Source: Pseudarthrobacter phenanthrenivorans Sphe3 (GTDB lineage: Bacteria; Actinomycetota; Actinomycetes; Actinomycetales; Micrococcaceae). Taken from it: a stretch of 64,000 nt of DNA. Location: positions 992,001 through 1,056,000 of the forward strand of contig NC_015145.1 of the NCBI RefSeq assembly GCF_000189535.1. Direction: 5' to 3'. Shown here piece after piece: positions 7,288-64,000 of the stretch. The first letter of the stretch is position 1, and every line of letters starts with the position of its first letter. Made by a program: the position numbers and the translations under genes. The notes under the pieces are model-generated. The model worked only from the letters and a program-made list of their open reading frames with translations, was not told the origin of the DNA and did no database searches.

Positions 7288-7686
7288 TCAAAACGGCAGT
7301 GCGATCAGCGCGATCAGGGCCGGGACAGTGGCTCCCACGGTTCCCGGGATGCTGTCGCCCTTCCGCGGGTAGTGGCCCTGCATGTCCGCCAGAAACATGG
7401 CCGGGGCGGTCAGCACCATGTTCAGGCAGCAGTAGATCACCAGGGTATAGCCCACCACCACTTGGCCCAGGTTCACGGCCAGCACCCCGGAGAGGACTCC
7501 CAAGCCGATCACCAGGTTGCGAAACCCCGTGGGGATGGCCCACATCATCACGGCCGGAACATTCCGGGGCGGGGTGCTCAGGAACTTCTGCGCCCATGGC
7601 CGGTGCATGAGGAAGCTTTCCAGCGGGAACACCGCGATGTAGATGACGGCGGCGAGTACCGCGAAGATCTGGGATACGGCGTTCAT
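7288..7686 (-). CDS. DUF1304 integral membrane protein
   Basis: A 132-residue protein with four predicted membrane helices (about residues 5-23, 48-72, 78-98, 110-130), the DUF1304 family layout, with the conserved FPLESFLMHRPWAQKFL loop at 20-36. The function is unknown. The ATG at 7686 sits six bases after a TACTCT -10 box, and the gene is divergent from the LuxR-type regulator. Confidence 0.82.
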   Translation of the reverse strand: MNAVSQIFAVLAAVIYIAVFPLESFLMHRPWAQKFLSTPPRNVPAVMMWAIPTGFRNLVIGLGVLSGVLAVNLGQVVVGYTLVIYCCLNMVLTAPAMFLADMQGHYPRKGDSIPGTVGATVPALIALIALPF

Positions 7687-7698
7687 GGAGGAAGAGTA
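7687..7698 (-). promoter_or_regulatory. -10 box for a leaderless start
   Basis: On the minus strand TACTCT (7698-7693), six bases, then the ATG at 7686. It shares the divergent intergenic region with the LuxR gene promoter. Confidence 0.5.
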
Positions 7699-7794
7699 CG
7701 ACGGCGGTGCGCGCCGCCCCCATCCCCGGCGCCGGGGGTCCGGGGTGCTTGGGGAATCCCCACTTTGGGGGATTGCGGTGCCGCCGGCGGGGCG

Positions 7795-7806
7795 GATACT
7801 GGAGCT
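7795..7806 (+). promoter_or_regulatory. -10 box for a leaderless start
   Basis: GATACT (7795-7800) plus six bases, then the ATG at 7807. The first base departs from TAnnnT. Confidence 0.4.
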
Positions 7807-8859
7807 ATGTGGGAGGAGCGCGCTGAGCGTGCCCGGCGGGACATCGCCGCCCTGGCCACCGGCGGAACAGACCCGGCAGGGCTCTACGCCTCGGCGCTCG
7901 CCGTAGTGCAGCGCACGGTGCCGTTCGAGCAGGGGTGCTGGGCCGCCGTCGACCCCGAGTCGCTGGTGATGACCTCCATTACCAACTGGAAGCCCTGGCC
8001 GGTGGGGGTGAGGGAGTACGAGGAATATTCCGCACGGTTCGCCGAGGCCGAGTACACGGGCCATGAACCGAACAACTTCGCCGAGCTGTTGCGGCGCCCC
8101 CGGCCCATCGCCCGGATGTCCGACGCCCCTCACCGGGACGTGGTCCGGAGCGTCCGGGTCAACGACCTGCTCAAGCCCCAGGGCCTGGAGCACGAGCTGC
8201 GCGCGGCCTTCCGGGTGGACGATGCGTGCTGGGGCGTGGGCAGCATCTTCCGGGACGGGGGCCACGACTTCACCGACCGCGAAGTCGAATTCCTGGACGC
8301 CGTCACCGCCACCCTCGCAGCAGCCACCAGGATCGCCGTCCGGGCCCGGCCCGCCAGCCCCGGACCTATGGGTGTGGGCCCCGTGATTGTCATCGCCGGT
8401 CCGGCCGGCGAACTCCGGGCCGCGACGCCGGCTGCAGCATCGTGGCTGGCGGAGGTGGAGGACACGGCGCCGGGCCGCTTCAGCATGGCGCTGTACTCAG
8501 TGGTGGCGCAGGCACACAGGGCCGCCTCCGGGACGGCGAGGGCCAGGATGCGCGACGCCGGGAACAACTGGGTGCTGCTGCAGGCCAGCCGCCTCATCAG
8601 CGGGGATGATCCGGAGCAGATGGTGGTCACCGTGGAACCGGCCACCACGCACGATCTTGCCGGCCTGCTGCTCACGGCTTACGGGGTCACCGCGCGGGAG
8701 CGGGAGGTGTGCCTGGACGTGCTGTCCGGACGTTCGACGGCGGACATCGCCCGGCACCTTTTCATCTCACCGCACACGGTCCACGACCACCTCAAATCGC
8801 TCTTCGAGAAGGTGGGCGTCGGCAGCCGCGGCGAGCTGGTCGCCACGCTGGTCGCCTAG
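7807..8859 (+). CDS. LuxR-type transcriptional regulator
   Basis: A 350-residue regulator. The C-terminal LuxR helix-turn-helix (about 283-348) has the typical TAREREVCLDVLSGRSTADIA opening and VHDHLKSLFEKVGVGSR recognition helix. The N-terminal ~200 residues look like a GAF/PAS-type sensory domain without a recognisable receiver phosphorylation site. It is a stand-alone regulator whose ligand and targets are unknown; the divergent DUF1304 gene is a possible target. Start chosen at 7807 from the -10 spacing and absence of upstream coding signal. Confidence 0.82.
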   Translation: MWEERAERARRDIAALATGGTDPAGLYASALAVVQRTVPFEQGCWAAVDPESLVMTSITNWKPWPVGVREYEEYSARFAEAEYTGHEPNNFAELLRRPRPIARMSDAPHRDVVRSVRVNDLLKPQGLEHELRAAFRVDDACWGVGSIFRDGGHDFTDREVEFLDAVTATLAAATRIAVRARPASPGPMGVGPVIVIAGPAGELRAATPAAASWLAEVEDTAPGRFSMALYSVVAQAHRAASGTARARMRDAGNNWVLLQASRLISGDDPEQMVVTVEPATTHDLAGLLLTAYGVTAREREVCLDVLSGRSTADIARHLFISPHTVHDHLKSLFEKVGVGSRGELVATLVA

Positions 8860-8912
8860 GTCCGTGGCCATCAGATCCGTCCTGGACGGTTTGGCTGCCT
8901 AAGCAGCGCGAA

Positions 8913-9650
8913 CTAGACAGTCCCCGGAACGGTGGCCGGAAGGTGGCGCGCGGGATCGTAGCGGTCGAAGGATGAGGCGCCGATCAGGAAGATGCCGCGC
9001 TGGGGAATCCAGAAATCGCCCAGCCTCGCCTGGTCGTGCAACGGCTGAGGGGTGCCGAGGTCCTGCCCGGCAAGGCGGGCGCTGCTGGACGCGATGAACC
9101 ACATGCGGCGGGGTTTGGCGCGGAAAGCCTGCCTGTTGGGCACGTTCCCCGTCAGGCCCAGCCGTCCCGCCCGCAGCACGGGGCCGGAGGCCGTACCCAT
9201 GACCTTCAGGACGGATGGGTTCTCCAGGACGCCATCCGGCAGCGAGCTCAGGGCGGCGGTCATGGCCCGGGTGACGGGTGTGGATTCCAGCTCCACCTCC
9301 CACGTCAGGTCCACGTCCCCGCCGATCCTCACAGTGAAGGCGGCATCGCCTGTCCACGCGATGTCGATGGGACACTGCACCGCCGCCTCCAGTCCCGCCC
9401 CGAAGTACCGGGCGCAGGAAACCTGGGCGGGGGCGTCGGCGTAGATGGTCCAGGATCCGGAGGGCCGCCGCAGCCACACCGACCGGTAGCCGGGACCAAC
9501 ACTGGTGACAGGGAAGCGCCGCATGGCCAGGACGTGGCCGGAACTGAAGGGCAGTCCCATCACCCCGTACCCGGAAAACCGCTCGTCCTCGCCGGGGCCC
9601 AGCCGGGCATTCTGTTCAGCCTCGGAGGCCTGCGCCCTGATGCTCTTCAT
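8913..9650 (-). CDS. Conserved hypothetical protein (245 aa)
   Basis: I do not recognise a named domain. The protein is soluble, rich in beta-strand-like segments, with no signal peptide or membrane helix. It contains YRSVWLRRPSGSWTIYADAP at ~65-84 and RRMWFIASSSARLAGQDLG at ~178-197, features seen in conserved actinobacterial proteins of this length. GTG/ATG alternatives upstream are poor and the ATG at 9650 has a GGAGG about 8 bases before it. Convergent with the LuxR gene, so probably a single-gene unit. Confidence 0.6.
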   Translation of the reverse strand: MKSIRAQASEAEQNARLGPGEDERFSGYGVMGLPFSSGHVLAMRRFPVTSVGPGYRSVWLRRPSGSWTIYADAPAQVSCARYFGAGLEAAVQCPIDIAWTGDAAFTVRIGGDVDLTWEVELESTPVTRAMTAALSSLPDGVLENPSVLKVMGTASGPVLRAGRLGLTGNVPNRQAFRAKPRRMWFIASSSARLAGQDLGTPQPLHDQARLGDFWIPQRGIFLIGASSFDRYDPARHLPATVPGTV

Positions 9651-9846
9651 GGCTTGTGCCTCCGCCTCGAGTGGGTGGCGTCAGTCTACGCCGGCGTGGG
9701 ATGGTTTGTGCCCTTCCGGGTGGGATCGGGCGCTTGTATGCTGTGGAGCGGAGAGCCGGGAAGCCTGGTCGGCCCGTAGGCATTGCCTGCGGAATGTCCC
9801 GGCGCTGCCGTGGGCGTTCATGCGATGACCCGAGGAGCAGCGGCTT

Positions 9847-10812
9847 ATGGACGCAGCGGCAGAACATGTTATCGAAGCCGACGGCCTGGTGAAGGAATTT
9901 GGCAGGACACGGGCTCTTGACGGCCTCAATCTTGCAGTGGCGCCCGGGGAGGTGCACGGATTCCTGGGGCCCAATGGAGCAGGCAAGTCCACCACCCTAA
10001 GGATCCTCCTGGCACTCATTCGTCCCACGGCGGGAACCGCCCGGGTTTTCGGGAAGGACCCCTGGGCGGATCCCGTGGCTGTCCACCGGGATATCGCCTA
10101 CGTACCGGGTGATGTGAGCCTCTGGCCGAACCTCTCCGGCGGCGAAGCCATAGACCTTCTCACGGGACTGCGCGGCGGTGCGGACGAAAGACTTCGCGGT
10201 GAGCTCATCGAGGAGTTCGAGTTCGACCCGCGGAAGAAGGCCCGCGCGTACTCCAAGGGGAACCGGCAGAAGGTGGCGCTGATAGCGGCATTCGCCCGCC
10301 CGGCCCGCCTTTACCTGCTGGATGAGCCGAGCGCCGGCCTGGATCCCGTGATGGACGCTGTGTTCCGCCGCCAGATCAAACGCGTCAGCAGGGAAGGCGC
10401 CACGGTCCTGCTGTCCAGCCATATCCTCAGCGAAGTGGAACAGCTGTGTGACCGGGTGACCATCATCCGTTCGGGAACGGCAGTGGAAGCGGGCACCCTG
10501 GGGGAACTCCGGCACCTGCAGCGCACGCACTTCCGGGTCACCGGGCTCTCTGATCCGGCGAGGCTGGCTGCGCTGCCCGGTGCACACAACGTCACCGTCG
10601 CAGGCGGAGCAGTGGAATTCGAGGCCGACCCCGGGGATCTTGCCGCGGTCCTGTCCGGCATCGCGGATCCGGGGATCACCAGCCTGTCGGTGGCGCCGCC
10701 GTCACTGGAATCCCTGTTCCTGCGCCACTACAGCGACGCCAACAACAGCGACGGCAGGAACACTGCCGGGGACACCGGCAGCAGCGAACGTACCGACAGC
10801 GGGGCCAGGTGA
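9847..10812 (+). CDS. ABC transporter ATP-binding protein
   Basis: A 321-residue ATPase with one nucleotide-binding domain: Walker A GPNGAGKST (41-49), signature YSKGNRQK (135-142, a variant of LSGGQ) and Walker B LYLLDEPSAGLDPV (155-168), then the switch His in SSHILSEVE. The C-terminal ~100 residues form the extra domain found in daunorubicin/antibiotic-type exporters. The stop overlaps the permease start (TGATG), so the pair is translationally coupled and forms one exporter. Confidence 0.93.
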   Translation: MDAAAEHVIEADGLVKEFGRTRALDGLNLAVAPGEVHGFLGPNGAGKSTTLRILLALIRPTAGTARVFGKDPWADPVAVHRDIAYVPGDVSLWPNLSGGEAIDLLTGLRGGADERLRGELIEEFEFDPRKKARAYSKGNRQKVALIAAFARPARLYLLDEPSAGLDPVMDAVFRRQIKRVSREGATVLLSSHILSEVEQLCDRVTIIRSGTAVEAGTLGELRHLQRTHFRVTGLSDPARLAALPGAHNVTVAGGAVEFEADPGDLAAVLSGIADPGITSLSVAPPSLESLFLRHYSDANNSDGRNTAGDTGSSERTDSGAR

Positions 10813-12431
10813 TGTCCGGTGTGCTGCGCCTGGTCCTGTTCCAGGCGCGCCGGGACCGGGTGGCGCTGCCCGTGTGGATCCTGGGCATCACACTGCTGGG
10901 CTTCGCCACGTCCACCGCAGTGGCCACCCAGTTCGGTGACGACGCATCGCAGGCGGCCATCCTCACGCTGGCGGCGTCCAACCCGGCGTTCCTTTTCCTC
11001 CGTGGGCTGCCGGACGGCACCGGCGTGGGCGCCGTGGTGTTCTTCCAGGGCTATGCCTTCACCGCGGTCTTGGCCGGCCTGATGAGCACGTTCCTGGTGG
11101 TGCGGCATACGCGTTCTGACGAAGAGCACGGGCGGGCTGAACTCCTTGGCGCGGTCCCGCTTCCGCGGGCCGCCTCCCTGGTGGCGACGCTGGTGCTGGG
11201 CACGGCGGCGAACCTGCTGCTCGCCGTCTTCGTTGCCGCCGGATACATCGCTGCCGGCCTGCCTGCAGGAGGCGCCTTGGCGGCCGGGGCCGCCGTCGGA
11301 ACCATAGGAGTGTTCTTCGCAGGCCTTGCCGCCCTGGCCGCGCAGGCCCTGCCCACGGGCAGGGGCGCGAACGGGGCGGCCGCGGGCCTGGTGGGCGCGG
11401 CGTACCTGGTCCGCGGCGTGGGGGATGCCCTGGGAACTCCGTCCGCAGACCTGCTGCATGTGGCCAGCGCCTGGCCCTCGCTGCTGTCGCCCATCGGCTG
11501 GGGGCAGCGGGTCCGTCCGTTCACAAGTCCGGACCTGGCCGCGCTACTGGTCCCACTCGCTGCCGCGACCGTCCTGGCAGCACTGGCCGTGCTGGTCCGA
11601 CGGCGGCGGGACGTGGGTGCCAGCCTTCTGCACCAGCGCAACGGCAGGGAACGGGCCGGAGCGGGAGGCGCGTCTTTCCTGGGCCTGGCCTGGCGGCTGC
11701 AGCGCGGCCCGGTAATGGGATGGTGTGTGGGGGCCGCCACCATGGGGGCCGTGGCGGGCGCCCTGGGGCCAGTGGTCTCTGAGAGCGCGTCCGGCATGGG
11801 ACCGATCCGCGACCTCATAGCGCGGCTCGTGCCAGGCGGCCAAACCGGGCTGGTGGACATCTTCGTGACGGCCCTGCTGGGCATCACGGGCGTCTTTGCT
11901 GCCGCCGCAGGCATCCAGGCAGTGCTCCGCATGAGGGCGGAGGAGACGGAGGGCCGGGCCGAACTGCTGCTTTCCGCTCCTGCCTCCCGTGCCCGCTGGC
12001 TTGGCGCGAACCTCCTTGCGGCCGCGGTTTCCACTGCCTTGGTGGCGGCCTCGGCAGGTGCCGCGGCCGCCGTCGGCCTGGGCATGTCCGGCACCGCCAA
12101 CGGCCCGGCCTGGCTGCTGGTTCCTGCGGCGCTGGCGCACGTACCCGCTGCCCTGGTGTTCCTGGCTGCGGCCGCCGTTGCCTTCGCGCTGGCCCCGCGG
12201 CTCAGCATCGCGCTGGCATGGGGGATACTCGCCCTGGGTCTTGTGCTGGGCGAATTCGGTGAGCTGTTCGGCCTGCCCGCATGGCTGCAGGATGCCAGTC
12301 CATTCCGGCATTCCTCTGCCATGCCGGTGGAACCCTTCAACCAGGAAGGGGCGGTGGGCTTGATTGCCGTAGCCGCCGCCGGCGCCGTGCTGGCAGGCTA
12401 CCTTCTCCGCCGGCGGGACCTTACTTCATGA
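10812..12431 (+). CDS. ABC exporter permease, TnrB3/polyketide-antibiotic type
   Basis: A 539-residue membrane protein with about 12 helices in two halves, each beginning with an amphipathic stretch and an RSDEEHGRAELL or RAEETEGRAELL motif (about 97 and 375). This duplicated motif is characteristic of permeases annotated as exporters of polyketide antibiotics (COG3559). With the upstream ATPase it should export a hydrophobic compound, probably conferring resistance. ATG at 10812 was preferred to the GTG three bases earlier because it overlaps the ATPase stop. Confidence 0.88.
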   Translation: MSGVLRLVLFQARRDRVALPVWILGITLLGFATSTAVATQFGDDASQAAILTLAASNPAFLFLRGLPDGTGVGAVVFFQGYAFTAVLAGLMSTFLVVRHTRSDEEHGRAELLGAVPLPRAASLVATLVLGTAANLLLAVFVAAGYIAAGLPAGGALAAGAAVGTIGVFFAGLAALAAQALPTGRGANGAAAGLVGAAYLVRGVGDALGTPSADLLHVASAWPSLLSPIGWGQRVRPFTSPDLAALLVPLAAATVLAALAVLVRRRRDVGASLLHQRNGRERAGAGGASFLGLAWRLQRGPVMGWCVGAATMGAVAGALGPVVSESASGMGPIRDLIARLVPGGQTGLVDIFVTALLGITGVFAAAAGIQAVLRMRAEETEGRAELLLSAPASRARWLGANLLAAAVSTALVAASAGAAAAVGLGMSGTANGPAWLLVPAALAHVPAALVFLAAAAVAFALAPRLSIALAWGILALGLVLGEFGELFGLPAWLQDASPFRHSSAMPVEPFNQEGAVGLIAVAAAGAVLAGYLLRRRDLTS

Positions 12432-12459
12432 TGCGGAACACGATGGACTGGGACAACCC

Positions 12460-13655
12460 ATGAGGATCATGCTGCTGACAGCGGGGACGCGCGGCGACGT
12501 GGAACCCTTTTTCGCCCTGGCCCGGGCCACGGCCGCCAGGGGACACGTTGTCCGCACCGCCATTCCGGACAACTCCGGCGCTGACACTACAGCCTTGGAC
12601 ACGGTCAGCCTGCGGATGGACTTCGCCCAACTGGTCAGTGACCAGGGCGTTTCACCGGTGGCCGCGGCCAAGGCGTTCCACAACGTCATCCGGCCGTCGG
12701 TGGGCCGGCTCCTGGCGGCAGCCGTCGAACACATCATCGCCTTCAATCCGGATGTTGTGGCCTACCACCCGAAGATCCTCAGTGCCCCCGGCGCTGCAGA
12801 GAGGCTGGGGGTGCCGTCAGTGCTGGTGGAGACCATTCCCTCACTGACCGCCACGCGCGAGTTCCCGGCACCGTTCATCACGAGAGCCAACCTGGGGCCG
12901 CTTAACAGGGCAAGCTACAGTCTGGCGAAGGTGGCCACGCTGATGTTCAGGCAGGAGCTGGCCGGGCGCTGGAAGGCCTTCCGCCCGCACCCAGGCTGGT
13001 GCCGGTCCGGCGGGCCACGATGATCCCGGTCAGTCCCGAACTGCTCCCAAGGCCCGCAGACTGGCCCGCCACCGTCCACCTCACGGGTCATTGGAGCGAA
13101 AAAACCAAGGAGCGGGACTGGGACAAGGAGTTGGCGGAGTTTGTGGCGGACGGCGGCTTTGTCTACGCAGGGTTTGGCTCCATGAAGGCCGGGGATCCAC
13201 GGGCACGGGGCGAAGCCATCATGGCGGCGGCCCGGCGGAACGGCCTGAGGACACTGGTGGCCAGTGGCTGGGGCGGCATCGATATTCCCCCGGAGGTCCG
13301 GGGCGATGACGTCCTGGTGCGGGAATCGGTGAACCACCAGCTGGTCCTTCCGCATGCCGCCGCCGCGGTCCACCACGGTGGGGCCGGCACGGTTCACGCC
13401 GTGGCACGTGCGGGCATCCCGTCAGTAGTGGTGCCGTTCATCGCCGACCAGCCGTTCTGGGGGCACCGCCTGCACCAGCGTGGGATCGCTCCTGAACCCA
13501 TCCCGTACCTGAAGGTCACTGCGGAGCGGCTTACCGATGCCCTGGCTGGGGCGCGGAACTGCCGGGAGCAGGCAGCGGAGGTGGGGGAACGCATCCGGAA
13601 GGAGGACGGGACCGCCGTCGCGCTTGATGTCCTGGAAACCTTCGCTGCGTCATAG
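12460..13655 (+). pseudogene. GT1 (MGT/UGT-type) glycosyltransferase, frameshifted
   Basis: Two adjacent reading frames encode the halves of one ~400-residue glycosyltransferase. The N-terminal half (12460 to about 12975) starts RIMLLTAGTRGDVEPFFALA, the donor-independent Rossmann half of macrolide-type glycosyltransferases. The C-terminal half (about 12975-13655, other frame) has the nucleotide-sugar site VHHGGAGTVHAVARAGIPSV. The change of frame lies near 12975, where the expected LGLPPAPRL linker resumes in the second frame. Intact enzymes glycosylate lipids or antibiotics and would fit beside an antibiotic exporter. A real frameshift and a sequencing error cannot be told apart here. Confidence 0.8.
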
Positions 13656-13679
13656 GCGCCGCACCCCTGTGGGAGAGCA

Positions 13680-15086
13680 ATGACAAACAAATCGATGGTT
13701 CCGGAGGCACGGGACCGCCGCGGCCCCGCAGCCGCGCTGGCAGACTTTGTGGACCGGGTGGCCCGGTACAGGCCCGCCCGGCTTGCCCTCGCCACCTACA
13801 CCTTGGTGGCGCTGTTCTTTACCCTGCTGCTGACGCTTCCCGTGGCCTCGGCTGACAACCAGCCCACGGCGCTGCATGACGCGATGTTCGTGGCGGTGTC
13901 CGCCGTCACCGTGACCGGCCTGGTCACGGTCAACACTGCGGAGCACTGGTCCTACTTCGGCCAGGCAGTGATCCTGGCGGCCATCCAGGTGGGCGGACTG
14001 GGGATCGTGACCCTGGCGGCCCTGCTGGCCAAAGCCGTGACCCGGCAGCTCGGCGTGCGCAACAAGCTGCTGGCGCAGCAGAGCCTGGGCGTGGACAGCG
14101 TCCGGCTCGGGGAAGTGGGCAGCCTGCTGAGGACGGTCATCATGACGTCCCTGACGCTGGAGCTGGTGCTGGTGCTCTTCCTTGTCCCGCGGTTCATCGT
14201 GGTGGACGGGTCCTGGGCGCGGGGGCTGTGGCACGGGATCTTCTACGCCGTCTCCGCGTTCAACAACGCCGGGTTCGTGTCCCACCCTGACGGCCTGGCC
14301 GGTTTCAGCACCGATCTGTGGATCCTGATCCCCATCATGGTGGGCGTCTTCGTGGGCAGCCTGGGCTTCCCCGTCTACATCGTGGTGAGGGCCGCGAAAC
14401 GGGACTTCCGGAAGTGGAACCTCCACACCCGGCTGACCCTCTCGGTTTCGCTCCTGCTCTTCGCTGCCGGATCAGTGCTGTGGGGTGCCATGGAGTGGTC
14501 CAACCAGGACACAATCGCCGGCATGGATCCGGGCGGGAAGGTACTGAACTCGCTCTTCGCCTCCGTCATGATGCGCTCCGGCGGGTTCAACCTCGTGGAC
14601 ACCAGTGCGTCCAACAGCGTCACCCTCCTTGCCACTGATGCGCTGATGTTTGCCGGCGGCGGCTCTGTCTCAACGGGCGGGGGCATCAAAGTGACCACCC
14701 TGGCCATCCTGTTCCTGGCCATCATTGCCGAAGCACGGGGCAACAGGCATGTGACCGCGTTCGGCCGGACCATACCGGAGGGCTCGCTGCGGGTGGCCAT
14801 TAGCGTCACGTTCCTGGGCGCAACCCTGGTCCTGGTGGGCACGGGGATCCTCATGGCCATCACGGATGAGCCGATGGACCGTATCCTCTTCGAAGTGATT
14901 TCCGGGTTTGCCACCTGCGGTCTGAGCGTGGGGCTCAGCGAGGAGCTGCCGCCGGCCGGAAAGTACGTCCTGACGGCCCTGATGCTCGCCGGCCGCGTGG
15001 GGCCGATCAGTTTTGCCGCGGCCCTGGCACTCCAGCAGAGGGACCAGCTTTACCGCTTCCCGGATGAACGGCCAATCATCGGCTGA
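13680..15086 (+). CDS. TrkH/KtrB-type potassium transporter
   Basis: A 468-residue transporter with four repeated membrane-pore-membrane units. The K+ selectivity loops are visible as SAVTVTGL (~79), SAFNNAGFVS (~197), MRSGGFN (~300) and SGFATCGLS (~408). It lacks an attached regulatory domain and no TrkA/KtrA gene is next to it, so the regulatory partner must be elsewhere. GGGAGAGCA precedes the ATG. It ends six bases from the convergent CorC-type gene. Confidence 0.92.
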   Translation: MTNKSMVPEARDRRGPAAALADFVDRVARYRPARLALATYTLVALFFTLLLTLPVASADNQPTALHDAMFVAVSAVTVTGLVTVNTAEHWSYFGQAVILAAIQVGGLGIVTLAALLAKAVTRQLGVRNKLLAQQSLGVDSVRLGEVGSLLRTVIMTSLTLELVLVLFLVPRFIVVDGSWARGLWHGIFYAVSAFNNAGFVSHPDGLAGFSTDLWILIPIMVGVFVGSLGFPVYIVVRAAKRDFRKWNLHTRLTLSVSLLLFAAGSVLWGAMEWSNQDTIAGMDPGGKVLNSLFASVMMRSGGFNLVDTSASNSVTLLATDALMFAGGGSVSTGGGIKVTTLAILFLAIIAEARGNRHVTAFGRTIPEGSLRVAISVTFLGATLVLVGTGILMAITDEPMDRILFEVISGFATCGLSVGLSEELPPAGKYVLTALMLAGRVGPISFAAALALQQRDQLYRFPDERPIIG

Positions 15087-15091
15087 GGCAG

Positions 15092-16411
15092 CTACCCCCG
15101 GGGCCCGCCGGCATGCCCGCCTGCATGTCCGCCGGCGGGAGTGACCCGGATCCGGGCGATGCGCAGCCGGTCCATCGCCGTCACGGTCAGCACATGGCCG
15201 GCGATCTCCACGCTGTCGCCGATGCGGGGGAGCCGGCCCAGCCGGTCAATGACGAACCCGGCCACGGTTTCGTAGTGGCCCTCCGGCAGTTCAATGCCGG
15301 AGGCGGTCTCGAACTCCTGCAGGATCAGCGCGCCGTCCACGTCCAGCGTTCCGCCCGCCCGGGTGACGCGGTCCTCCGGGTCGGTGCCGGTGTCGTACTC
15401 GTCGTAGATCTCGCCCACCAGTTCCTCCACGAGGTCCTCCAGGGTGACGATGCCGTCGGTGCCGCCGTATTCGTCCACCACCAGCGCGATATGGTGGCCC
15501 AGCCTGCGCATCCGGGCCAGCGACGGCAACACCTTGTTGGTGCCGGGCAGCGGCAGGATCTCGCGGACGATGTCCCGCACCGGACCGTCGTCGTACTTCC
15601 CTTCCCGAGGCATCAGGTCGCGGATGTGGATGAACCCCAGGACGTCGTCGGGGCTCCTGTCGATGACCGGATACCGCGAGAAAGGGCCATCCTGCACCAT
15701 GCCGCGCACGGCGGCGATGCTCAGGTTGCCGTCCACGAACGTCACCTCGGTGCGCGGCCGCATCACCTCCTGCAGGGAGCGGTCGCCCGCGCCGAAGACG
15801 TCGGAGAGGATGCTGCGGCTGTGCTCTTCGAGCATGTCGCTCTCCGCCACCATGTCCCACAGTTCCTCCGAACTGATGCTCTCCTGCTTGGCCTTCGGAT
15901 CGCCGCCGAAGAGCCGCACCACCGCATCCGTGGACACGGACAGCAGCCACACGGCGGGCCGCATGATCTCGGAGAGGACGCCCAGGGGAGGGGCCAGGAC
16001 CTTGGTGAAGCCGACGGCGCTCTGCATGGCCAGCCGCTTGGGCACCAGCTCGCCGAGCACCAGGGAGAGGTATGCCACCAGCAGCGTCATCCCGATAAAG
16101 GAGACCGGTTCCGCCGCGGTTCCAAAGCCTATCCCCGCCAGGAGGGGTTCGACGTCGGGCGCGATGGTGGAGGCGCCATAGGCCGCCGAGAAGAACCCCG
16201 ACAGGGTCACCCCGATCTGCACTGTGGAAAGGAAGCGGTTGGGATTCCCGGCCAGCGCCGCGATCCGGGCACCCCGCTTCCCGGACTTCTCCATCCGGCG
16301 CACCTGGCTTTCGCGGAGTGAGACCAGCGCCATTTCCGTGCCGGCAAACACCCCGCCCAGCAGCACGAAGAAGAGGACCAACAGGAAGTTCAGCAGTGTG
16401 TCCGCGTCCAT
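15092..16411 (-). CDS. Hemolysin C / CorC-type CNNM protein
   Basis: A 439-residue protein with the CNNM (DUF21) membrane domain (about 1-190, three to four helices), a pair of CBS domains (about 215-335, LGFIHIRDLMPREG and HHIALVVDEYGGTDGIVTLEDLVEE) and a C-terminal CorC_HlyC transporter-associated domain (about 345-425). Bacterial members function in Mg2+/Co2+ transport or tolerance; the hemolysin name is historical. Predicted leaderless start. No partner gene is coupled to it. Confidence 0.92.
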   Translation of the reverse strand: MDADTLLNFLLVLFFVLLGGVFAGTEMALVSLRESQVRRMEKSGKRGARIAALAGNPNRFLSTVQIGVTLSGFFSAAYGASTIAPDVEPLLAGIGFGTAAEPVSFIGMTLLVAYLSLVLGELVPKRLAMQSAVGFTKVLAPPLGVLSEIMRPAVWLLSVSTDAVVRLFGGDPKAKQESISSEELWDMVAESDMLEEHSRSILSDVFGAGDRSLQEVMRPRTEVTFVDGNLSIAAVRGMVQDGPFSRYPVIDRSPDDVLGFIHIRDLMPREGKYDDGPVRDIVREILPLPGTNKVLPSLARMRRLGHHIALVVDEYGGTDGIVTLEDLVEELVGEIYDEYDTGTDPEDRVTRAGGTLDVDGALILQEFETASGIELPEGHYETVAGFVIDRLGRLPRIGDSVEIAGHVLTVTAMDRLRIARIRVTPAGGHAGGHAGGPRG

Positions 16412-16423
16412 GATCCGACACTA
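16412..16423 (-). promoter_or_regulatory. -10 box for a leaderless start
   Basis: Minus-strand TAGTGT (16423-16418), six bases, then the ATG at 16411. Confidence 0.5.
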
Positions 16424-16483
16424 CAGAACCGGGCTGGCCGGGGGTTATGTTCCCGGGCGGTGCGGCGTAGGGTCTGAGGAACC

Positions 16484-17080
16484 ATGACCGAACAACTGCC
16501 GTACGAGCCTGTCAAGAGCTACCCGCACTTCGAACTGCGCCGCTATCCCGCGCACGTCCTGGCCGAAATCCATGTCAACGCCACCTTCGACCGTGCCGGA
16601 AACGCCGCCTTCCGGCACCTGTTCAACTACATCAGCGGCTACAACAGGGCTGAGCAGAAGCTGGCGATGACAGCTCCCGTCATCCAGGGGCCCGTGCCCT
16701 CGCAGAAGCTGGCGATGACGGCCCCGGTGCTGAGGAGCGGGCCGCTGTCCGGGGGCGGCCAGGCCGCCGACTTTGCCGTGGCGTTTGTGCTCCCCGTGGG
16801 CATCACGGCGGAGACGGCGCCCGTCCCGCTGAATCCCGACGTCAGGATCCGCACCGTGCCCGGCTCGTTGACGGCCGTGGCGCGGTTCAAGGGCAGCGGC
16901 TCCGAGGCGTCATTCGCGCGGCACAACGAAGGGCTGCAGGCGGCGATCAGGCTGGCAGGGCTGACGCCGGTTGGAGCGCCCCGCTATGCGGACTTCGACC
17001 CGCCCTTCAAGCCCTGGTTCCTGCGCCGCAACGAGGTGCACCAGGACGTCAGAGAACCCGATGGCGTTACTGGACCCTGA
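16484..17080 (+). CDS. SOUL heme-binding-family protein
   Basis: A 198-residue SOUL-family protein. It has the family opening YEPVKSYPHFELRRYPAHVLAE (about 6-27) and two QKLAMTAPV segments at about 58 and 74, one of which is the usual single copy, so a short internal repeat is present. SOUL proteins bind heme or porphyrins; physiological roles in bacteria are poorly defined. The ATG is preceded by a TAGGGT box ten bases away and a GAGGAA, so both leadered and leaderless translation are possible. Confidence 0.88.
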   Translation: MTEQLPYEPVKSYPHFELRRYPAHVLAEIHVNATFDRAGNAAFRHLFNYISGYNRAEQKLAMTAPVIQGPVPSQKLAMTAPVLRSGPLSGGGQAADFAVAFVLPVGITAETAPVPLNPDVRIRTVPGSLTAVARFKGSGSEASFARHNEGLQAAIRLAGLTPVGAPRYADFDPPFKPWFLRRNEVHQDVREPDGVTGP

Positions 17081-58144: not shown

Positions 58145-58221
58145 CTAGCGTCGGCCTTAGTGGGCTAAATACCAGCAATGTTCAGCAAAAATGGTTTCGC
58201 AGAAGCTGATCACGGGAATCC

Positions 58222-58510
58222 AAGGACTTCGCTAACTCAAACATCGGCGCGAACCCAAAGAACATGTCTGTCTTCAACTAAGCATGGAATCAAATGAGGG
58301 CCGATGCCGGTGCGGCGCAGCTGCGCAAGGCAATGGAGTACTTGCTTCGTGGCTCATCGCCGTTCGACCTGAAGGATCGCCTCATTGTTCTGAATAATGA
58401 CACCACGTCCTTCGGTAAAGGGGGCTTCAAGGAGTCACTCCTCACGAAGGTTCTGTGCCTTATGTACCCACACAGGTTCCTGCCCAACTTCACGTACACC
58501 GGCGCCGCCT
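58222..58510 (+). pseudogene. Fragment of a McrB-like restriction-type gene
   Basis: The frame reads WNQMRADAGAAQLRKAMEYL then an LLTKVLCLMYPHRFLP block, which resembles the N-terminal region of McrB-type GTPase genes that recognise DNA. An in-frame TAA (58279-58281) interrupts it and the coding ends abruptly near 58510, where the next gene's end begins. No ATPase part remains. McrB identity is an impression, not a proven match. Confidence 0.4.
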
Positions 58511-58533
58511 GCTTGCAAGCTTTCACCTCAGGC

Positions 58534-59844
58534 TTACGCGGCGACCGCCGGAAACACCACGATCGATCCGTCCCTGTTCCGTTCAATTTCTATTGCAACG
58601 TCAGCTTGTCCGTTGCCCCCGTTAAGGCCAGCTCCAAAACCACGCAGGCGGTATGCCGCCTTTAACAGGTTGTCCACTTCCCCCTGAGTGACCATGAGAT
58701 TTAGGAAACCTCCTCCCCGCCTCAGTTCTATATTCGACAGCCGGGAAAGAACCTCGTTGATACCAGCTTCCAACTCATTGATACGGTGCTCGTCATCACG
58801 TAGTGCACCGATGAAGCTCTTGAAAGGGTTCTCCGTGTCCTGTTGAGCGTGCTCGACGGCCTGGAGGACCAGCACACGACGTTTAAGTGCAATAGCAAGC
58901 CGGGCGATCTCAAGATGGGCCCGAAACATTCCGCCTTCCTCGTTAACGCCCGGAAATGACTTCGTCAGCTGATCTAGCTCGACCGGCCCCTCCGGCAGCG
59001 ATTTCAGGGCATTCTGCCATTTGCTGAGTCGGCGCTCTGTTGCGTGAATGACCACGCTAATTGCGTATGACGAGGAATCTAGGCCCAGGGAAAGGCCCAC
59101 CCGACCCCGATCGAGAAGGACGGAGGTCGCCTTATCGATGGCGTCACGGCAAGCGCCAAGCTCGCTGCGTTCCTGCTCGAGTTTATCGTCGTGTAGCTGC
59201 TCCAGCAGGTCAGTAATCCGCTCCATCGCTTGCTGTCGCTGATGTTCGGCGTGGGCGCTCACGCCCACGGCAACCGCCATCAGTACGAGTGGCGCAGCAA
59301 CTGTCAGCGCTCCCGCACTAGCTACTGCGACTCCAGCGGTAGCGGCCGATCCCGTGGCTGCCCCCGCGACTGCTGCCTGACCGGCAACCGGAACAAAAGT
59401 GGCCTGTGCTGCAATGCCACTTGAGCTGCGAAGAGCGCTATGGATGCCTCCCGCCACCGCCTTCGAGGTCATGGGCTGCACGAGTCCGCTTCCTACCTGA
59501 GCGGCAACCTTTGCCGGCACTACCATTCGGTAAAGAACCTCACCGCTGGCCCCGATGTTCAGCTTTGAGGGGGCAGTATTTGCGGTCTGAGAGACGAGTT
59601 GAGCTAGCTGTTGTGCCAGGGGACTGGCCGATCCCAGCGGAATAGCGCCCTTTCGATCACGTGGGGTGGTTATGTGATGTGCCTCAAGTGTGGCAACGGG
59701 CGAATCAGCAAGTGCTGCGAGGACGGTCCTTAGTTCTGCGAGTCGAGGCGAAGTCATCTCTCCCTCGCCCAGCACATTTGTCACGCTGACCGGCTCCGTA
59801 GAGAGCGCCCACACTGGCACGAGGTCCTGATTATCACCGGTCAC
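58534..59844 (-). CDS. Predicted membrane-active coiled-coil protein (unknown family)
   Basis: A 436-residue protein in the accessory island. An N-terminal soluble part is followed by a Gly/Ala-rich hydrophobic stretch (about 150-195, AVAGAATGSAATAGVAVASA then APLVLMAVAVGV) that could form two hairpin helices, then long charged helices (about 200-400, MERITDLLEQLHDDKLEQERSE and RRVLVLQAVEHAQQD). The layout recalls pore-forming or membrane-perturbing effectors. GTG at 59844 has AGGGGA seven bases before it and TATATT further upstream. Function unknown; minus strand and broken DNA on both sides. Confidence 0.6.
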   Translation of the reverse strand: MTGDNQDLVPVWALSTEPVSVTNVLGEGEMTSPRLAELRTVLAALADSPVATLEAHHITTPRDRKGAIPLGSASPLAQQLAQLVSQTANTAPSKLNIGASGEVLYRMVVPAKVAAQVGSGLVQPMTSKAVAGGIHSALRSSSGIAAQATFVPVAGQAAVAGAATGSAATAGVAVASAGALTVAAPLVLMAVAVGVSAHAEHQRQQAMERITDLLEQLHDDKLEQERSELGACRDAIDKATSVLLDRGRVGLSLGLDSSSYAISVVIHATERRLSKWQNALKSLPEGPVELDQLTKSFPGVNEEGGMFRAHLEIARLAIALKRRVLVLQAVEHAQQDTENPFKSFIGALRDDEHRINELEAGINEVLSRLSNIELRRGGGFLNLMVTQGEVDNLLKAAYRLRGFGAGLNGGNGQADVAIEIERNRDGSIVVFPAVAA

Positions 59845-59951
59845 GCTTAGTCCCCTCTGGAAATATAAGTCTTTACTAGCGATGGTAGCTACACCATTAC
59901 GGACATTAGGATGCAAGACCGTATCGACCACCGCCGTGTCGTGTTGGCGAT

Positions 59952-60206
59952 TCAAAATTCGCCCTGGCTGGCTGCGTGATGTTCGGTGACAGATTTGCGG
60001 GTGAGCATCGACACTACGGCTGTTAGCGCCGGTTTCCGCGCCTCCGTACGCGACAGGTCGAGCTTCAGCTCGCGGCCCCTGCCTTTTTGGGCGCTCACCA
60101 ACCGAGCAGCAGCCATCAACTCGGCAGGATCCCGGTCCAGATAGGCCAACGAAAGTGGAGCAGTGCGCATCAGCGACCCGTTGCCGGCTGCGGCCGGTCC
60201 GGGCAT
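59952..60206 (-). pseudogene. ADP-ribosylglycohydrolase fragment
   Basis: The start reads NGSLMRTAPLSLAYLDRDPA, the metal/ligand-binding segment of ADP-ribosylglycohydrolases, within the first 31 residues. After about residue 40 the match is lost and the frame becomes Arg/Ser-rich. The enzyme's two metal-binding halves are not both present, so the fragment cannot be active. It probably marks an earlier gene replaced by the island. Confidence 0.6.
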
Positions 60207-60528
60207 GAGTTAGTCTGCGCCCCGATGTCCTTCGCCTCGTTCGTCCAGACGAACCATCACGGGACCACCATGGTGAGGGCTGCAGGGGGAAGAGCTGCCG
60301 CCGGTTGCGGATTTCAGCAGTGCCTGAGCGATCGGGATGGCCAGGATGTGTCATCGGTCCACTCCGCCGGCGAACCCGAACGGGCCGCCGCTCTTTATGG
60401 TGACTTCGGCACCCTCCGGTCGCGGCGCCGGCAGACGCCGCTCCTGAGTTTGGGGTGATGTGCCCGGCTCTGTGGCGACTCCAAAAGCGAAGGCGGGTGT
60501 CGCGTACCGGACGCTTGGTATCGGACCG
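60207..60528. other. Non-coding or decayed stretch
   Basis: No frame here has a recognisable domain and a usable start. It separates the ADP-ribosylglycohydrolase fragment from the ATPase gene promoter and is probably the rest of the replaced locus. Confidence 0.4.
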
Positions 60529-60540
60529 TATCCTGATCCA
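60529..60540 (+). promoter_or_regulatory. -10 box for a leaderless start
   Basis: TATCCT (60529-60534), GATCCA, then the ATG at 60541. It selects this start over the GTG at 60460. Confidence 0.5.
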
Positions 60541-62961
60541 ATGCCCAACCCAGTACGCGCGTCCCAATGGTCCGATGACGAGCTCGACGCGCTTATCGAT
60601 AGTTACCTAAAAATGCTGAAGCTCGAAGTTTTAGGCGAAAACTACAACAAGCGACAAAATAACTTGGAACTGCAAAAATTCGTAAAGCGATCGCATGCCG
60701 CAATCGAGTTCAAATTTTGCAACTTAAGTGCGGTTCTTGACGGGCTGGGTAAAAGGTACATCTTTGGGTATAAACCACGTCCCCACTTTCAAGTTGCCCT
60801 GCGGGACCGCGTTCTCCAGCGATTGGGAGAATTTCCTCCCCGAGTTGTTTCTAACTCTTACGAAGGATCGCCGTTACACGACGCTCCAGCGACCCCCTTC
60901 GATCTCCGAGATTCGGGCGAAGGAGCAGGTGATAACTTTGAGCCACGCGATGAGGGGGAGCCTATGGACGCATACTGGGACACGCTGGGTGAGCTTTGGG
61001 ACAGAACGACCGGCGGCAGTGACGTGGCAGCGAAGCCGGCCAGCCAGATGCGGAGCAATCTACCAACTGCGCCTCGGCCTGCCGGTGTAGAGGAAGCCTG
61101 CACTTGGTTCAAGAAAGGCTTGGCCAGTGACTCGATTCCAAGGTTCCTTTTCCTAGTAGGAGGACCGGGGGCTGGCAAATCCTACGCCACCTCCGAGATC
61201 GTCGCTGGGCTTGAACCGATTGAACCCCCTCAGGACGGCCTCGCGCATCGGAGTTATCGTTATAGAGCTGGGAGTAGGGAGCTTCTGCTAATTAACGACG
61301 CAACTATTGGTAGCTCCGAGCATCGAAGGAATCCGCTGACCAAAGAGATCGATTCTTGTGTGCGTAGTGCAAAGCATCTTGTCGCGTGCGTAAACAGGGG
61401 CATCCTCATCGATGAATCAGCCCCAATTTCGAGTACCTCAACCTTCGATTACACCGCGGGTCAGGCCCTTGTCCGTTGGTTGGCCGGAGACGCATTCGAC
61501 CAATCAAATTGGCACGTGCAAACTGACTGTGATGAACCGTATTTGCGGGCCGGTCACCTGTTCGACGGGCCCGACATCGTGGCCAGTGTATTCGTCGTGT
61601 TCGTCGATGTTTGCTCGCTTTTGGAACGTCGTCCTCAGGTAGATATCAGGCTGGACGAATATGGCAGGACCGTTTTCGAGGCCGAAGCTTATGTCATTGG
61701 TGACTTTGCTAAGCGTGCCACCCTGAATCTTGCTACGCCTGCAGGCTCTTTGTTCAGTCAGGTGACAAACCTCCTTTCGAGCTGCCTGCGCAATGGATCA
61801 GACGAATTGATCGATCCAATACGGGCCAACATTGAGTCACTTTGTTCTAGCCGCGTCCGCGCCGGAATCATGTCCGTGGTGCGTGGGGCGGAGCTAACGT
61901 CCGGGCAACGTATGACCTTCCGAGAAATATGGGGAACCGTTACGCGCTGCATCTTAGGTGACGCACCGGACAGAGTCGCGCGTGACGAGCTTCGCGCTCT
62001 TGTCCAACGCCTCCAACCATCCGATCTCGACTCCGTCACTCGGTTTAAAGACTTCCAAGCGCTGGCGGCGTTGCGTTTTTCCCAAGCCATCTTCGGCGGC
62101 CGAAGCCCTGGAGCGGGGAGTTTCGACCCGCTCGGCAATCCCATCACTAAGCTGACGCATTTTGTGGACCCGATGCGGGATGCAATTCCAGGGCGCTTCG
62201 ACCGGAGCTGGGAGTCTGGGTGGGCAACACCTCTGGCGGACTCTTTTGCCGGGCCGGTCACAAGTGGCTCTCCCCTGGAAAGCCTCGAGGCTGATCTCGA
62301 TGCCGAGGACAGCTTCTCCGACATCTTGACCGAATTTGATAAAATGCTGGATCGCGCGTTTGTTGACGCAATGCATAGTCCCAAAATAGGAGACAAGGAC
62401 CGGTACGCCTTCATTTCTTGGTATGGGGGGTACCTTGGCCGCCTGTACGCCCTTGCTAACGGGATCCCGGCATTCAGGCCTCAGGTGGCAGCGTGGACGC
62501 AAGCGTGGTATTTGAGTCCGAACCTTCCGGATGAGCTCGGCTTTGGCCTGCGCACGTTGCTTCGTCCGAAACGCCGACCAGGGGATATCGAATCTGCCTC
62601 CCTTATCCCTATTTTGGCAAGCCGAACTGACCCGATCGTTGGAGTGCAATCCGAACCCAAGCTTGCACTCAAGACCGGTGATGTCGAGATGAAGACGTTG
62701 AGAGATTCCGAGTCCCTGTTCCTTGTACTGAGCGAACAAGGAAAGGAAATTTCACGGATGCCCTTGGATTTTCCTCTGGTTAGGGAAGCACTGGCATGCG
62801 GGCAGGAGCATGCAGGAGTAACCGAAATGACTGATGTGACTTCCCCTCGATTGGAGAGGTTTCGAGCCGCCCGCTTAATTCCCACCCAACTCAATCAGGC
62901 TAACTACCGAGTTGTAGTCGGCGCCTCAGACTTCAGTATGACCGTTTCTGGAGGGTACTAA
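60541..62961 (+). CDS. Large P-loop ATPase with nuclease-associated N-terminal domain
   Basis: An 806-residue protein. Residues 8-85 hold a domain (WSDDELDALIDSYLKMLKLE, K-RSHAAIEFK-CNLSAVLDGLG and GYKPRPHFQ) common at the N-terminus of HNH endonucleases and restriction-type genes, probably a DNA- or protein-recognition module. Walker A GGPGAGKS is at 207-214; a Walker-B-like LLLINDATI is at 248-256, and ACVNRGILIDE at 282-292 is sensor-like. The rest (about 300-806) has no domain I know. The stop overlaps the next start (TAATG). It resembles ATPases of defence systems in layout, but I cannot assign a named system. Codon use is less GC-biased than the host's. Confidence 0.75.
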   Translation: MPNPVRASQWSDDELDALIDSYLKMLKLEVLGENYNKRQNNLELQKFVKRSHAAIEFKFCNLSAVLDGLGKRYIFGYKPRPHFQVALRDRVLQRLGEFPPRVVSNSYEGSPLHDAPATPFDLRDSGEGAGDNFEPRDEGEPMDAYWDTLGELWDRTTGGSDVAAKPASQMRSNLPTAPRPAGVEEACTWFKKGLASDSIPRFLFLVGGPGAGKSYATSEIVAGLEPIEPPQDGLAHRSYRYRAGSRELLLINDATIGSSEHRRNPLTKEIDSCVRSAKHLVACVNRGILIDESAPISSTSTFDYTAGQALVRWLAGDAFDQSNWHVQTDCDEPYLRAGHLFDGPDIVASVFVVFVDVCSLLERRPQVDIRLDEYGRTVFEAEAYVIGDFAKRATLNLATPAGSLFSQVTNLLSSCLRNGSDELIDPIRANIESLCSSRVRAGIMSVVRGAELTSGQRMTFREIWGTVTRCILGDAPDRVARDELRALVQRLQPSDLDSVTRFKDFQALAALRFSQAIFGGRSPGAGSFDPLGNPITKLTHFVDPMRDAIPGRFDRSWESGWATPLADSFAGPVTSGSPLESLEADLDAEDSFSDILTEFDKMLDRAFVDAMHSPKIGDKDRYAFISWYGGYLGRLYALANGIPAFRPQVAAWTQAWYLSPNLPDELGFGLRTLLRPKRRPGDIESASLIPILASRTDPIVGVQSEPKLALKTGDVEMKTLRDSESLFLVLSEQGKEISRMPLDFPLVREALACGQEHAGVTEMTDVTSPRLERFRAARLIPTQLNQANYRVVVGASDFSMTVSGGY

Positions 62962-64000
62962 TGGTTGCGGCTATCAGCATGATTCTTCCCTTGAATCGCC
63001 CCCAGTATGTGTCTGTACCCGAGGCTTTCATCTCCTCTCTGGCCTGGCGGGTGTATGACCATGGCACAAAAGAAATAAGCGAAAACGGCGTCCCCGTCGG
63101 GTATATGTTCCGTTCGGAGACGTCCGGGACGTCGACGCTCAAGGTGAAGTCAACTGCGCCGGAAGGTGAAGACCTTGGGGACTTCGGCCACCAACTTGTC
63201 GCTTATGGACTTGCAACGAACGCAAAACACGAGATCGACGTGGCCCGTGCAGTCTTAAATAGCGTTGCGGGAGTGCAGGCAGAAAAGAGCAAAAGCCAAG
63301 CAGCGAGCCCTATCACTCCCGCATTTGCCTTGCTTCAGGATATGCGCGGATTCCAGCGTACTAAAAACCCCCCCGATCTGGGCGGAATCCTTGAGGGGCT
63401 GTTTCGGCTGGGCCTACAGGACGGTTCAGGGACTACAGCTGCTGGCCTCTGGCTAAGCGCGGCGAACAAACGCTGCGAGATAGATCCGCTGCTGTCTGCT
63501 ATTGACAAGGCAACGAAAGCAGCACTGCTTGGCGGAGGATACCCCGAACGAATTGAGGAAGCCGACCTGAGGTGGGCCGGGGCAGCGCCCGGAAGTCAGG
63601 AAGGGTTGTACGAGGGCACACCGTTTTCTTGGTTTGCCAAAGCATGGCAGAAGTTGACCGGAGATGAATGGGTAAAGGCTCTTCCTGCCCGAGTTTGGGT
63701 TGATTGGGCTACCACCGTCCTCCGCCTCGCACTTGGACAAGGCTTCCTTTGGGAAGCTGCCTGGTATGAAACTCTGGCTCGGTGGGTCCTCAGCGGAAAG
63801 CGCGGTGAATGGAGTGATGTCAGGGCTCGGGTGCCGGAGATCCTTCCATGGAAGTCAAGTCGTTCGTCGGTCGCAGTGAGGGACGTGGCTCCGCTGCTCT
63901 CCTGGCGTGTGCATCGTGGCTCCAAAATTCGGAAGATTTTCGAAGAGTGGTTGGCCTCAAATTCCGTGGCGCAGGTGGATTTCTCAACAGCTTTAGCTGC
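62961..64000 (+). CDS. Partner protein of the ATPase (cut by window edge)
   Basis: The frame from the ATG at 62961 is open to the window end (at least 346 residues). It overlaps the ATPase stop by one base, so translation must be coupled. I do not recognise a domain. Visible traits are a mixed alpha/beta start (ILPLNRPQYVSVPEAFISSLAWRVYD, about 8-33), a helical middle and tryptophan-rich helices (WVKALPARVWVDWATTVLRLALGQGFLWEAAWYETLARWVL, about 237-277). No signal peptide, no obvious catalytic motif so far. The remaining gene lies beyond the window. Confidence 0.7.
   Translation, partial: MVAAISMILPLNRPQYVSVPEAFISSLAWRVYDHGTKEISENGVPVGYMFRSETSGTSTLKVKSTAPEGEDLGDFGHQLVAYGLATNAKHEIDVARAVLNSVAGVQAEKSKSQAASPITPAFALLQDMRGFQRTKNPPDLGGILEGLFRLGLQDGSGTTAAGLWLSAANKRCEIDPLLSAIDKATKAALLGGGYPERIEEADLRWAGAAPGSQEGLYEGTPFSWFAKAWQKLTGDEWVKALPARVWVDWATTVLRLALGQGFLWEAAWYETLARWVLSGKRGEWSDVRARVPEILPWKSSRSSVAVRDVAPLLSWRVHRGSKIRKIFEEWLASNSVAQVDFSTALA

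Follow-up and report, generated by a model that had tools for sequence, protein, structure and literature searches.

In DndFGH (also DptFGH), modification represses ATP hydrolysis and translocation, according to the part available to us of one report (PMC11662687), and SspFGH, in the available part of its description, damages unmodified DNA and is harmful to cells without its modification genes (PMC8092258). Self versus non-self recognition by the two complexes is still unsettled. A 2024 analysis, in the portion that we could draw on, treats DndFGH as standing alone and describes it as without an inbuilt modification module (PMC10853773). Here we describe a locus of Pseudarthrobacter phenanthrenivorans Sphe3 that begins at the right edge of a 64,000-nucleotide stretch of contig NC_015145.1 (positions 992,001 to 1,056,000, hereafter the window; G000:C1:992001-1056000 in our numbering). 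Its genes A and B supply the F and G members of an FGH complex that has its own C5-cytosine methyltransferase (E) and often Vsr, and a large gene, H, is the third member. It is likely that these genes constitute a restriction-modification system in which an FGH-type restriction complex is combined with a C5-cytosine methyltransferase. The pairing of FGH-type restriction with C5 methylation is what is new; no description of it was found in the literature searched, most subscription papers and preprints being outside the reach of that search.

A sequence-only reading of the window had proposed a coupled, defence-type system of two genes and of unrecognised kind. The coupled defence-type unit stands and matches no complete named system; the limit of two genes is rejected because the operon runs on past the window, to positions given below in extended coordinates (add 992000 for the position on contig C1).

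Gene A: 60541-62961, plus strand, 806 amino acids (aa), or 833 aa if begun at an upstream GTG at 60460; tentatively DndF/SspF-like
Gene B: 62961-64385 (G000:C1:1056385), plus strand, the window holding 62961-64000, the first 1040 of 1425 bases; complete in the genome, 474 aa, DndG-like by predicted structure
Open reading frame (ORF) with the 5' part of gene H: 64394-65443, 349 aa
IS21-family element with an istA/istB pair: 65404-67545 (L002 5405-7546), 2142 bp, splitting gene H
3' part of gene H: ending at 72108, a frame of about 1512 aa
C5-methyltransferase (E): 72205-73590, PF00145, E-value 2.5e-47
Vsr: 73623-74033, after methyltransferase E, 136 aa, PF03852, E-value 1.5e-33

A genome-contig scan with the gene B alignment yielded 17 loci, all with A-B-H in the same order and on the same strand (L008 stops inside H), so that the A/B linkage, whose absence the earlier reading would have taken against itself, is conserved throughout. 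In 16 of the 17, a C5-methyltransferase is found no more than about 2 kb from A or H; at the remaining locus, on the short contig L008, none was seen and Vsr was. The methyltransferase may be downstream on the same strand, upstream on the same strand (L006), downstream on the opposite strand (L005, L019), or upstream on the opposite strand (L020), and pairwise identities among these enzymes of 30-96% indicate that methyltransferases have been exchanged. Nor do the loci count as independent observations: L009, L010, L012, L013, L016, and L018 have methyltransferases that are 78-96% identical. In all five other carrier genomes searched, the linked methyltransferase is the sole PF00145 gene. The Sphe3 genome itself carries a second C5-methyltransferase (G000:C3:9776-10843), which is little related to E.

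The pairing also occurs outside the family. The genes run methyltransferase-A-B-H in L062, from another family of the order, methyltransferase-A-B-H-Vsr on plasmids of Rhizobium, Sinorhizobium, and Shinella, and A-B-(164-aa gene)-H-methyltransferase in Pseudoalteromonas. The proteobacterial proteins are taken as the same A, B, and H on the basis of hhalign matches to the actinobacterial ones (E-values of 9e-17 for A, 6.3e-5 over 352 columns for B, and 7e-113 for H). Vsr is the enzyme that deals with T:G mismatches left by deaminated 5-methylcytosine, and it was found at 14 of 19 actinobacterial and three of four proteobacterial loci (17 of 23), a linkage that fits lasting methylation of host DNA; the Vsr proteins of L008, L020, and L062 share just 36-37% identity with that of Rhizobium. 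Distribution is patchy: among 197 genomes from the family, six have gene B, and among 396 from the phylum, two have H at E<=1e-10, Sphe3 included in both counts. When, to look for an empty site, one protein from the left flank and one from the right were sought in 12 genomes of the same genus, both were found outside G000 in G008 only, on different contigs. A record filed as bacteriophage (L063, MT836369.1) holds a piece of a rhizobial-type relative whose H is 67% identical to that of Rhizobium, and this DNA is probably bacterial in origin; another "phage" record (L064) holds a DndFGH locus. HerA matches on the Vibrio plasmids L029 and L031 lie among conjugation genes and do not belong to an A-B-H system.

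Of the three proteins, B and H are the more readily placed. With about 8000 candidates scored for each gene, homologues at E<=0.001 numbered 301 for B and 138 for A; the best 120 of each were listed, and alignments were built from 26 (A1) and 93 (A2) of the listed B proteins and from 99 (A3) and 56 (A4) of the listed A proteins. No PADLOC model matched gene B, and its predicted structure is that of a triple winged-helix protein of the DndG type, so by its modeled fold gene B is DndG. H is a single ORF of 1772-1937 aa, counted from the first possible start, in the 16 relatives without truncation. In an alignment of 13 of the 17 relatives (one truncated sequence and three near-duplicates were left out), the motif residues are invariant in all 13, and the C-terminal HerA/FtsK domain (E-value 1.5e-47) is preceded, as in DndH, by a PD-(D/E)xK-like restriction endonuclease (REase) motif, in a strip that is colinear but weak on its own. 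By its HerA family, H is DndH-like as judged from sequence; the PADLOC models that match it are DndH, mad8, HerA, PDC-M62A, and HEC-02A. Outside the HerA domain and REase strip no significant profile match was obtained when the N-terminal domains of DndH were sought (inactive SWI2/SNF2 half, helix-turn-helix, beta-sandwiches, target recognition domain, and inactive DAM). Methyltransferase E, a PF00145 protein with intact catalytic motifs, adjoins H with its nuclease-like motif, so the gene content of a C5 restriction-modification system is present.

Gene A is assigned as DndF/SspF-like more tentatively. Its frame is open over 60460-62961, and the form that starts at 60541 has the length of the window's listed protein P0126 (806 aa); as the sequence-only reading had it, a Walker A motif, GGPGAGKS, occupies residues 207-214 of that form. 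Residues 7-97 match the PADLOC candidate-defence family PDC-S36 (E-value 1.2e-27), the only PADLOC model matched, with no Dnd or Ssp model among the hits. A low-confidence linker (105-139) leads into a P-loop nucleoside triphosphatase (NTPase) core with ND at 252-253 and an asparagine in the Walker B place (CVNRG, 283-287), followed by a helical and then an alpha+beta part. Comparison with the DndF profile gave an E-value of 3.5e-5 over 212 columns and single DndF sequences gave 2.6e-4 to 0.0097, values to be read beside that of a decoy, IstB, at 9.2e-5 over 30 residues; the PADLOC SspF model matched two of 56 gene A relatives weakly (best E-value 6e-4). A search of the PDB returned generic P-loop/AAA+ entries, DndF not being among them, which excludes nothing. 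The stop of A and the start of B share one base in TAATG, as had been noticed earlier; the same junction occurs in the relative L004, and short overlaps or gaps occur in the others.

In the Sphe3 genome H is interrupted near residue 337 by the IS21-family element, which has 27-base imperfect inverted ends with ACTAC on either side. The 349-aa and 1512-aa ORFs are therefore not separate genes C and D, being one ORF in relatives. The reading frames of A, B, E, and Vsr are open; with H broken, the restriction arm is probably off in this strain, and methylation may be continuing.

How an intact system might work is suggested by the genes present, their order and linkage, by the fold predicted for B, by the HerA family of H, and by motif conservation. 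Methyltransferase E, with its intact catalytic motifs, would methylate cytosines at target sites in host DNA, and Vsr, judged by its family, would repair T:G mismatches arising from deamination of the 5-methylcytosine. A, B, and H would assemble like DndF, DndG, and DndH, with B reading DNA, A binding nucleotide and gating the complex, and H travelling along DNA by its HerA/FtsK motor and nicking or cutting through its putative PD-(D/E)xK-like nuclease domain. By analogy with DndFGH, self DNA would keep the complex silent through its 5-methylcytosine and so be protected from restriction, while unmethylated DNA of an invader, such as a phage, would be translocated and nicked.

The direction of discrimination could be the reverse. 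Modification-dependent nucleases are a known kind, which speaks for a complex in which A-B-H attacks DNA carrying 5-methylcytosine or otherwise modified cytosine, with E triggering it or marking invaders. DndF is itself predicted to sense modified nucleotides in the available part of the 2024 analysis (PMC10853773). A complex that attacks 5-methylcytosine would, however, harm its own host at the 16 of 17 loci where E lies beside A-B-H, and the Vsr linkage fits lasting methylation of host DNA; we consider this reading unlikely. A little less likely is a divergent DndFGH/SspFGH that still depends on phosphorothioate supplied from elsewhere in the cell, with the methyltransferase a passenger, despite the DndH-like HerA domain of H, the DndG-like fold of B, and the SspF matches among A proteins. 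DndC was not found in any of the six carrier genomes searched (SspD had no search of its own), and phosphorothioate dependence is rejected on that ground; besides, the methyltransferase adjoins the system as the sole PF00145 gene of the other five carriers, and its linkage is kept across four arrangements.

The genes might instead be unrelated neighbours, defence islands having gathered an independent methyltransferase-Vsr pair next to an FGH-type system, and both the patchy distribution and the presence of another defence-like gene, a KAP NTPase, in the low-GC DNA of the locus would agree with this. The pairing, however, recurs in Actinomycetota, Alphaproteobacteria, and Gammaproteobacteria, and the KAP gene and the 682-aa gene adjoining it recur in none of the 17 relatives, against 16 for the methyltransferase. 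This alternative is very improbable. The restriction-modification reading, in which E supplies the self mark of A-B-H, accounts for the evidence best. No co-variation of any H segment with the methyltransferase appeared among 10 of 19 sequences, six near-duplicates and three proteobacterial ones having been dropped.

A search with the PADLOC SspF profile found SspF-type proteins in three of 396 genomes (L061, L068, L069). L061 belongs to a different family of the same class and has, over 7415-16984, a C5-methyltransferase gene directly followed by SspF-like (E-value 3.9e-29), SspG-like (4.1e-8), and SspH-like (2.8e-23) genes. In L068 and L069, large genes of G and H size follow the SspF-type gene and are assigned by place and size alone, bar a weak match of that of L069 to H (E-value 1.2e-5); neither stretch yielded a relative of E. 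In the SspF-type protein of L068 (6649-10884, 1411 aa), the N-terminal half has two protein kinase matches as well as NERD, and no methyltransferase was found among the three ORFs scanned there. Over 336-17934 of L069, an AIPR gene, an N6_Mtase gene, and a 474-aa gene lead into the operon of the SspF-type protein, the N6_Mtase match (E-value 3.9e-30) being two genes upstream of F. Of the three loci, then, L061 comes with a C5 methyltransferase and L069 with an N6 methyltransferase. When an SspFGH reference was sought through DndC matches on plasmids, none of the eight regions examined was SspFGH by annotation. FGH complexes may work with various marks, which three loci do not settle. FGH could be one widespread restriction engine with exchangeable self marks, namely phosphorothioate (Dnd, Ssp), 5-methylcytosine (the A-B-H family, L061), and perhaps N6-methyladenine (L069), a proposal to which we give somewhat less than an even chance; phosphorothioate systems would then be special cases of a translocating restriction-modification class.

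The surroundings of the operon fit acquired DNA. The GC content is 0.572 over 58200-64000 against 0.667 over 1-50000, and GC at third codon positions is 0.578 in gene A and 0.593 in gene B against 0.86-0.96 in four nearby genes, which agrees with the atypical codon use reported before. Just left of gene A, 59952-60206 on the minus strand matches PF03747 (E-value 5e-6) and is likely, by sequence, a remnant of the ADP-ribosylglycohydrolase gene that the sequence-only reading had recognised in fragments; its McrB-like fragment was not recovered, the ORF at 58294-58665 having no Pfam match at E<=0.05. To the right lie two further genes.

682-aa protein, between Vsr and the KAP gene: L002 14186-16234, plus strand; no Pfam, PADLOC, or NCBIfam match at E<=0.1
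KAP-family P-loop NTPase: L002 16973-19081 (76972-79080), minus strand, 702 aa, PADLOC PifA match with an E-value of 1.6e-48

The KAP NTPase is a separate island gene, as it has no match in the 17 relatives.

As 16 of 17 relatives combine a related complex with a dedicated base methylase, the self mark could be switched on and off by one gene, with no sulfur chemistry. The system also lies in a blind spot of current annotation, since genes A and B of the Sphe3 family go undetected by the Dnd models of PADLOC and NCBIfam, and PADLOC likewise overlooks both genes in the Rhizobium and Pseudoalteromonas relatives.

BREX, DISARM, and Druantia are rejected as identities for the locus, PADLOC having given other models for H, PDC-S36 for A, and none for B; the hits of E that bear DISARM and Druantia names are C5-methyltransferase models. 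Type II C5 restriction-modification systems and dcm-vsr pairs combine a C5-methyltransferase with Vsr, as here, but in this locus three proteins, with a HerA/FtsK motor among them, make up the restriction part in place of a type II endonuclease. SspFGH with SspBCD likewise has a Walker A protein, a middle protein, and a large protein with an FtsK-like C-terminus, as far as the available text of its description goes (PMC8092258), and proteobacterial A can be aligned with the SspF-like protein of L061; SspFGH differs in being reported alongside phosphorothioate genes, and the PADLOC Ssp models match none of A, B, and H in Sphe3. The sequence-only reading had held that homologues lying mostly within Dpt/Dnd would tell against it; the proteins do prove related to DndFGH, whereas the loci are not Dnd. 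Shared with DndFGH are the F-G-H set in the same order, the fold of B, and the REase-HerA/FtsK layout of H, together with the P-loop, Walker B asparagine, and variable N-terminal domain of A, as described for DndF in the accessible part of the 2024 analysis (PMC10853773). A-B-H is unlike DndFGH in being tied to a C5-methyltransferase, and often Vsr, instead of DndBCDE (coupling to which was not borne out, with DndC in none of the six carrier genomes), and in the lack of PADLOC Dnd matches to A and B and of NCBIfam Dnd/Dpt matches to A, B, and H at E<=0.1. A cytosine methylase in a Dnd-related setting is also a feature of the CxC/DndDE systems, whose distinguishing gene was not seen in the present operon; there, in the available part of the same analysis, the methylase replaces the phosphorothioate enzymes (PMC10853773).
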